Below are positions 32,100 through 33,317 of a stretch of 64,000 bases of DNA, piece by piece; within the stretch, counting starts at the first letter, position 1, and each line of letters begins with the position of its first letter. The DNA is from a cyanobacterium endosymbiont of Rhopalodia gibberula (lineage in GTDB: Bacteria > Cyanobacteriota > Cyanobacteriia > Cyanobacteriales > Microcystaceae). Made by a program: the position numbers and the translations under genes. Below the pieces are notes generated by a model. That model was not told where the DNA came from. It was given only the letters and a program-made list of their open reading frames with translations, and ran no database searches. Location: contig NZ_AP018341.1 of assembly GCF_003574135.1 (NCBI RefSeq), positions 868,001 through 932,000 of the forward strand, in the 5' to 3' direction.

Positions 32100-32993
32100 T
32101 TAGTAAACCTCAACGTGCCAACGATGATCTTTTTTCATGGACTTAACAAAATCAGGCCATTCTACTCCCTGCTTTTTAGCAAAGGGAGCGAGTCCTTCTT
32201 CAATGCCGCTTTCCATACCTTTTAGTCCACACATATATAAGTGAGTTTTGGGCTGTTGTAACATATTCCATAACTCTTCGGCGTGTTCAGCGACTCGATG
32301 CTGAATGTACATCTTGCCACCGTCTTTGTTTTGTTGTTCCCGACTGATAGCAGTGCTAAGACGGAAGTTTTCAGGGTAATCTGCTTGCATCTTCTCTAAA
32401 TCATCTTTGTAGAGAATATTAGCGGAGTAGGGAACCCCAAAAATTAACCAAGCCAGCCCTTTAAATTTATAGTCTTTGTGTTGTTCTTTAAACATCCGCC
32501 AGAGAAATGAACGGAAGGGAGCAATTCCAGTCCCTGTTGCTAACATGATGACGGTAGCGTCTTCATCTTCAGGAAGAAGCATTTCCTTACCTACAGGTCC
32601 CGTAATGGCTACATCAGCACCAACCTCTAGATAACACAGATGGGTTGAACAAACACCATAAACAGTTTCTCCATTTTCAGGATGTTTATATTCGAGTTGA
32701 CGAACACACAAAGAAACTGTCCCATCATCGAGCTTATCACCATGACGGGTAGATGCGATGGAATAGAGTCTTAACTTATGGGGTTTGCCATTCTCGTCAG
32801 TTCCCGGGGGAATAATTCCAATACTTTGTCCCTCCAAATAGTGTAAATCTCCGCCGGAGATATCAAAGGTGAGGTGTTGAACAATTCCACTACCGCCTTC
32901 GGCGACGAGAGGATAATTTTCAATACATTTCCCAATATAAGGATCTTTGGGCTTGTAAATATTAACAGGAATCTTCGCCTTTGCTTGAGTCAT
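32100..32993 (-). CDS. petH: Ferredoxin-NADP+ reductase, short (FNR-S) form
   Basis: FAD enzyme exchanging electrons between ferredoxin and NADP(H). The 297-residue catalytic unit is complete: FAD motif LRLYSIAST (about 75-83), [20 protein letters not shown] motif [12 protein letters not shown] (about 153-164), [12 protein letters not shown] and the terminal HVEVY tyrosine that stacks on the flavin. Most cyanobacteria encode about 100 more residues at the N-terminus, a CpcD-like domain that ties the enzyme to phycobilisomes. Here that part is dead (33012-33317). The ATG at 32993 matches the internal start that Synechocystis uses for its small isoform, which works in NADPH oxidation under heterotrophic or nitrogen-limited conditions. 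Confidence 0.96.
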
Positions 32994-33011
32994 AGACTTA
33001 TCTTGTTGGTT

Positions 33012-33317
33012 TCTTGTTGCTTTACGGTTGTTCTACGACCCGGGGTTTTGACTGGTTGGTGGTAACTTGCAAAGGAGTATCTGCGTTCAGAGGTTTGACC
33101 TCGACAATCCTAATACCTATGCGAGCAATGCGGCGCGTTTCCTAATTCATTCACCGATAAGGAACAGTGATAGGGAAACTCCCACTGCAACGAATTGGGT
33201 AGCCAAGACTATCATTAATCGCCACTCTGAATCTAACCCCACAACCCCGTAAACAAACAGTTGGTTTCCAGACACTGTTGCTTTGGTTGAAGTCGTCCCC
33301 AAATTTGGACTGTACAT
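33012..33317 (-). pseudogene. Decayed CpcD-like N-terminal domain of petH
   Basis: The original petH start is still legible on the minus strand: MYSPNLGTTSTKATVSGNQL then FVYGVVGL from 33317. A frameshift after that moves the reading to YPIRCSGSFPITVPYR-stop-MN-stop. It continues as ETRRIARIGIRIVEVKPLNA, the end of the CpcD fold, then a linker with two more stops (EQP-stop, PTR-stop) up to the catalytic start. The frame also differs from that of the catalytic part. CpcD-like domains cap phycobilisome rods, so this piece has no use once phycobilisomes are gone. It still forms the 5' leader of the short gene. Confidence 0.93.

Follow-up and report, generated by a model that had tools for sequence, protein, structure and literature searches.

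The petH gene of the spheroid body of Rhopalodia gibberula (RgSB) has lost its phycobilisome-docking domain and kept its catalytic domain, as the preliminary description of this DNA had proposed and as alignment to the free-living relative SU2 and the contrast in dN/dS between the two parts confirm. In the window (the whole stretch of DNA analysed, 64,000 nucleotides long) both parts lie on the reverse strand. Positions 32100–32993 hold an intact frame for the short form of FNR, 297 aa long, with a dN/dS of 0.06. Positions 32994–33317 hold a dead CpcD-like docking domain and linker of 107 ancestral codons, with three stops, three single-base insertions and a dN/dS of 0.88.

Genomes compared

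The RgSB chromosome, the source of the window, is a single contig of 3,020,309 bp. It was compared with the spheroid bodies of Epithemia clementina (EcSB, NZ_CP123991) and E. turgida (EtSB, NZ_AP012549) and with NZ_OX373462 (EpSB, 2,483,960 bp), which was taken as the endosymbiont of E. pelagica, whose genome is given as 2.48 Mb (PMC11167328). All three are of the same genus as RgSB; the four spheroid bodies are separate records from different hosts. Their closest known free-living relatives are reported to be SU2 and PCC 8801 (PMC11131595), and SU2 (G002) served as the codon reference for counting lesions. Two further genomes, G013 and G021, which we take for UCYN-A, are called UCYN-A-like here.

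Two neighbours of petH were noted in passing. A type I methionine aminopeptidase (31157–31996, forward strand) reads through in RgSB, EcSB and EpSB, and its EtSB equivalent (L005) is frameshifted and contains an in-frame TAG. HypB, a hydrogenase nickel-insertion protein, is intact at 37479–38342 (reverse strand).

The catalytic domain

The FNR frame is free of defects, which bears out the earlier view of a flawless catalytic domain. The protein aligns over its whole length (residues 1–297) with residues 1–304 of Anabaena FNR (1gjr); the FAD and NADP domains are intact and full-length, and the chain ends in tyrosine. NAD_binding_1 scores 98.5 bits, and two FAD-binding Pfam models score slightly below their own cut-offs. 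The NCBIfam model for cyanobacterial petH FNR (NF045929) matches with 601.5 bits, above its cut-off of 600, while the model for the bifunctional CpcD/FNR protein (NF058510) reaches 600.2 bits against a cut-off of 635; an in-frame CpcD fusion is precluded by the three stops and three shifts in that domain. A single FNR match is listed in each of the four spheroid-body genomes, RgSB included.

Remains of the docking domain

The CpcD domain of RgSB can still be read piecewise; the fossil ATG of the long form lies at 33315–33317. The Pfam CpcD model matches the remnant above its cut-off (31.6 bits, E 6.4e-7), with one TGA and one TAG inside the match, and this is the sole CpcD match listed genome-wide at E 0.001. 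All lesions lie on the reverse strand: a TGA at ancestral codon 55 (33151–33153), a TAG at codon 58 (33142–33144), a TAA at codon 98 (33022–33024), two +1 insertions at codons 29 and 33 (33218–33231, the exact base being ambiguous) and a third +1 insertion at codon 105 (33000–33006). The preliminary description was right that the N-terminus is readable, and its count of one frameshift and at least four stops gives way to three insertions and three in-frame stops relative to the SU2 codons; the earlier figure fits one raw frame read across all the shifts.

EcSB shares with RgSB the stops at codons 55 and 58 and all three insertions. EtSB has stops at codons 6, 16, 55 and 58, the three insertions of RgSB, a further one at codon 82 and a 2-base deletion. 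In EpSB there are stops at codons 2, 58 and 88 and nine indels, including +1 at codons 29 and 33 and none at 105; its remnant is missed by the CpcD profile and found by tblastn (E 2e-12). Consequently, the TGA at codon 55 is present in EcSB and EtSB and absent from EpSB, the TAA at codon 98 occurs in RgSB only among the four, and the insertion at codon 105 is found in three of them. The insertions at codons 29 and 33 and the TAG at codon 58 occur in every one of the four, and extra lesions private to a single genome are present in three of them. The EpSB alignment is ambiguous around codons 33–34, where a second insertion stands beside the first, so the firmest shared lesions are those at codons 29 and 58. 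These shared lesions indicate that the domain was already dead in the common ancestor, and thus that it died once, before the four sampled spheroid bodies split.

Selection on the two parts

The dN/dS of the two parts, a comparison called for in the preliminary description, was estimated by the Nei-Gojobori method and pooled over the six spheroid-body pairs, with stop and gapped codons left out. The N-terminal dead part gives 0.88 (bootstrap 0.59–1.40) and FNR gives 0.06 (0.04–0.09). Single pairs, which are not independent of one another, range from 0.73 to 1.06 for the dead part, with wide intervals whose lowest bound is 0.36, and from 0.04 to 0.12 for FNR. For three pairs of free-living relatives the values are 0.14–0.20 (N-terminal part) and 0.05–0.08 (FNR); the docking domain is constrained in them.

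The codon positions tell the same two parts apart. Within FNR the third position dominates in all six pairs (0.04, 0.01 and 0.23 for RgSB–EpSB). Within the dead part it is not the fastest in five of the six (0.19, 0.21 and 0.19 for RgSB–EpSB; 0.15, 0.06 and 0.08 for RgSB–EcSB). FNR is under strong purifying selection in the spheroid bodies, without sign of relaxation, and the CpcD domain, with its disabling lesions and neutral evolution, is a pseudogene.

The internal start codon

The ATG of the short form lies at 32991–32993 (reverse strand). A survey of 39 genomes, RgSB included, gave an FNR match in 38; 30 of the loci were fetched and read, and 24 of these have long frames. A methionine at the junction between CpcD and FNR is found in 22 of the 24 (it is absent from L026 and L029, and in L027 it sits about 15 residues further up), so the option of a short form predates the loss of the domain. 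Above this methionine the frame is open for just 13 codons in all four spheroid bodies, and none of these is ATG, GTG, TTG, CTG, ATT, ATC or ATA in any of them. A single shared stop as the cause of the equal 310-aa frames was rejected, the upstream residues of EpSB being in another phase. Judged by its sequence, the RgSB protein is therefore an FNR-S, with its start at the internal junction methionine and without CpcD. This agrees with the earlier statement that evolution has fixed the short isoform, with the qualification that no result demonstrates selection in its favour.

The region before the ATG holds a hint of conservation. The 45 nt before it vary less than the remaining dead region (9/47 vs 109/286 columns, Fisher P 0.013); a window at −105 within the dead region is as conserved. 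Conservation is not clearly higher in the stretch from −179 to −90 ahead of the former start (27/90 vs 109/286 columns, Fisher P 0.17), and a promoter search returned 4 promoter-like sites against 4.9 expected by chance, and no terminator. RNAfold pairs the short-form ATG with an upstream stretch; this hairpin was not accepted as evidence, since its energy is ordinary (z −0.03, with 97 of 200 shuffles equally good).

Short FNRs in other cyanobacteria

The FNR open frame is 310 aa long in each of the spheroid bodies, 301 aa in the two UCYN-A-like genomes and 388–472 aa in the other 32 genomes of the survey with a match; the sole genome without one, G007, is 78% complete. On a tree of 30 FNR proteins the short-only state needs two changes, which is the number forced by the well-supported branches. 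None of 500 shuffles was as low, a comparison that tests clustering only. By this tree the UCYN-A-like genomes reached short-only FNR independently of the spheroid bodies. Their FNR resembles that of RgSB in having the junction methionine and no CpcD or linker match; unlike RgSB, they retain no CpcD remnant at the locus by profile search or tblastn, and their PsaA and PsaB are intact. The near relatives SU2 and PCC 8801 have catalytic domains 95% and 87% identical to that of RgSB but long forms, with frames of 421 and 407 aa and an intact, constrained CpcD domain.

Short FNRs are known from other settings. FNR-S and FNR-L can both come from one petH gene (PMC9144156, PMC9319322), heterocysts have the small FNR only, active in NADPH oxidation (PMC6616624), and small-form transcripts are present in nitrogen-fixing filaments (PMC6462935). 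The FNR-S of Synechocystis, Anabaena and heterocysts is the product of the same gene and has the same catalytic domain as in RgSB, without CpcD. There, however, the long gene is intact, and the short form is described as a product of regulation at the level of transcription or translation (PMC9144156, PMC6462935), whereas the long form of RgSB is unreadable. The outcome in RgSB resembles that in the heterocyst, yet is fixed in the genome. Gloeobacteria, like RgSB, have the CpcD-less FNR as their only form (PMC10696076, PMC9144156); there it is treated as the state before domain gain, while RgSB represents a secondary loss with the fossil still readable.

A class-wide search of 388 genomes found FNR in 376, with frame lengths known only among the matches listed. 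Two short frames were set aside as candidates for short-only petH: one of 307 aa in G386 is cut by a contig end, and one of 313 aa in G406 (genome 73% complete) has a readable CpcD in another frame, a single shift away from FNR, and was taken for a draft error, although this is not proven. Seven genomes taken from inferred names for Prochlorococcus have no CpcD match, with FNR frames of 370–393 aa. Five taken in the same way for Acaryochloris also have none; among nine unsplit FNR rows in these, seven frames are of 320–360 aa and two of 423 and 437 aa, and four split rows have frames of 436–437 aa. These long frames without CpcD imply that loss of the antenna does not always leave a bare short form. 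Separately, in the genome group g144 three of five genomes (G219, G253 and G260) have more than one FNR locus; their frame lengths run from 320 to 437 aa, and CpcD gave no match.

Phycobilisomes and photosystem genes

Profiles for linkers and phycobiliproteins were run on 26 genomes. The linker domain PF00427 has no match in the four spheroid bodies or in either UCYN-A-like genome, and 7–9 matches in each of the four free-living family members included. The phycobiliprotein family PF00502 is represented by one broken piece in RgSB and two each in EcSB and EtSB, with none in EpSB or the UCYN-A-like pair. RgSB thus lacks intact linker and phycobiliprotein genes, and the suggestion that phycobilisomes have been lost, for which a search for cpc and apc genes had been advised, holds in all four spheroid bodies. 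Phycobiliprotein (16) is among the losses listed in Table 1 of PMC12903740.

The correspondence between CpcD and phycobilisomes is not a strict one. Three of four linker-rich f23 genomes have no CpcD match beside FNR at E 0.001, and the match in the fourth is below the cut-off; these genomes count against it. Since the EpSB remnant too was missed by the profile, absence of a profile match is weak evidence of absence.

Among the eight genomes searched for PsaA/PsaB, fragments remain in RgSB and EcSB, no match was found in EtSB or EpSB, and the four that are not spheroid bodies have intact genes. In EtSB a member of the NifH family that is not nifH, and is probably chlL, is broken (G003:C1:814630-815414); it is open in RgSB, EcSB and EpSB, which agrees with a published account that chlorophyll genes decay more slowly in RgSB (PMC5638926).

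The electron route to nitrogenase

PFOR is intact in SU2 and PCC 8801 among the eight genomes searched. In RgSB a single 168-base piece with a stop remains (G000:C1:2319568-2319735), and poor remnants are seen in EcSB and EtSB (among G001, G003 and G004). EpSB has no recognisable gene, only a weak match inside a 630-aa frame that was read as another enzyme and is also present in SU2, PCC 8801, EcSB and RgSB; the two UCYN-A-like genomes gave no match. By contrast with PFOR, all eight genomes have an intact G6PDH and an intact nifH (best PF00142 match), and an intact Fer2 ferredoxin lies about 10 kb from nifH in all four spheroid bodies (2420889 vs 2410201 in RgSB). With PFOR broken or undetected and these genes intact, FNR is the best candidate for the reductant of nitrogenase's ferredoxin, judging from the genes that remain. 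The continued need for FNR, claimed earlier, is supported by its dN/dS; the feeding of nitrogenase, raised with it as a possibility, is deduced from the remaining genes and had been proposed before, for diazoplasts, in PMC11070190. FNR has also been placed in a proposed electron route of UCYN-A (PMC6315102).

We propose the following course of events, which as a whole we regard as very probably correct. The ancestral spheroid-body petH would have been an ordinary cyanobacterial CpcD-FNR gene with a junction methionine. Phycobilisomes were presumably lost in the ancestor that the spheroid bodies share, leaving the CpcD anchor without a partner and open to neutral decay; this order, loss before decay, is the one we infer. 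Ahead of the catalytic domain, the old internal ATG is now the one start codon of the usual kinds left in the open part of the FNR frame, and the soluble FNR of 297 aa should therefore be the sole product. As neither intact PsaA/PsaB nor intact PFOR was found, FNR most likely runs from NADPH to ferredoxin, with NADPH probably supplied by G6PDH from host sugar. The reduced ferredoxin would be delivered to nitrogenase, and probably also to NDH-1 and other ferredoxin-dependent steps.

Two published observations speak against this. Thermodynamically, the direct step from NADPH to ferredoxin runs uphill except at a high NADPH/NADP+ ratio (PMC6462935, PMC6616624). An FNR-S-only strain of Synechococcus 7002 was unable to grow photoheterotrophically (PMC9319322), so that in the presence of phycobilisomes the loss of the anchor is not neutral in every case.

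Alternative explanations

FNR could instead be kept mainly for NDH-1 respiration, glutamate synthase and other reductases, with nitrogenase fed from elsewhere and the loss of the anchor uninformative about it. Selection on FNR is equally strong in spheroid bodies and free-living relatives, which makes a new role unnecessary; RgSB retains six Fer2 matches, and FNRS has been described as a ferredoxin supplier for NDH-1 (PMC9144156). We nevertheless think this unlikely, if worth taking seriously, as both alternative sources searched for, PSI and PFOR, proved either broken or undetected.

A more far-reaching proposal is that the release of FNR from the antenna recurs as lineages move toward a nitrogen-fixing organelle. 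Two independent endosymbiont lineages would have fixed a heterocyst-like switch of start, with FNR locked in the NADPH-to-ferredoxin direction for nitrogenase and the stretch immediately ahead of the internal ATG maintained by selection as a dedicated start site. This is a speculation that we consider rather doubtful. Its less ambitious relative, in which the short form was favoured because NADPH oxidation is greater with free FNR-S, the loss of the anchor being an advantage and not just tolerated, is improbable. Short-only FNR did arise at least twice among the 30 tree rows, in two lineages taken for N2-fixing endosymbionts, and the lower variability of the 45 nt before the ATG would fit, but that signal is weakened by the equally conserved window at −105. 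All 12 genomes searched outside the family with zero or one linker are also without CpcD matches, and antenna loss alone may suffice. The near-neutral dN/dS indicates that the domain decayed once useless and does not imply that the short form was favoured.

It is hardly credible that the lesions stem from errors of sequencing or assembly, or that recoding bypasses them and a long FNR is still made. Nothing in favour of this was found for the four genomes, although a lone frameshift of such a kind does occur in the low-completeness draft G406, outside the group; against it stand three lesions recurring in four separate records from different hosts, further lesions private to three of them, a pooled dN/dS near 1, and the several shifts and stops that would all need to be bypassed.

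Relation to published work and significance

Short-only FNR in Gloeobacteria and heterocysts and the retention of FNR in diazoplasts are already known. The loss of the petH domain in spheroid bodies or UCYN-A was not found in the titles and opening lines of abstracts covered. The main text of PMC11070190 contains no mention of petH, FNR or phycobil as terms, and states FNR retention in section 14; the texts of PMC11131595 and PMC5638926 contain none of petH, ferredoxin or phycobil; and PMC6315102 names FNR once and petH not at all. The domain loss, its single origin, the contrast in selection and the UCYN-A parallel were thus not found in print, and the gene may be annotated as truncated in supplements or in the 2014 E. 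turgida genome paper.

The petH gene of the spheroid bodies is a clean case of sub-gene reduction, in which one domain of a fusion protein dies and the other stays under full selection, and which was possible because an internal start codon was already present. The loss of antenna docking is dated before the split of the four sampled spheroid bodies, and the parallel in the UCYN-A-like genomes suggests a repeatable pattern. The case for FNR as ferredoxin reductant gains from the remnants of PSI and PFOR, and for an endosymbiont without photosystems the path of electrons to nitrogenase is narrowed to a testable chain of G6PDH, FNR-S and a nif-linked ferredoxin. Loss of the anchor with retention of the enzyme is what would be expected of a former photosynthesiser now running on sugar.
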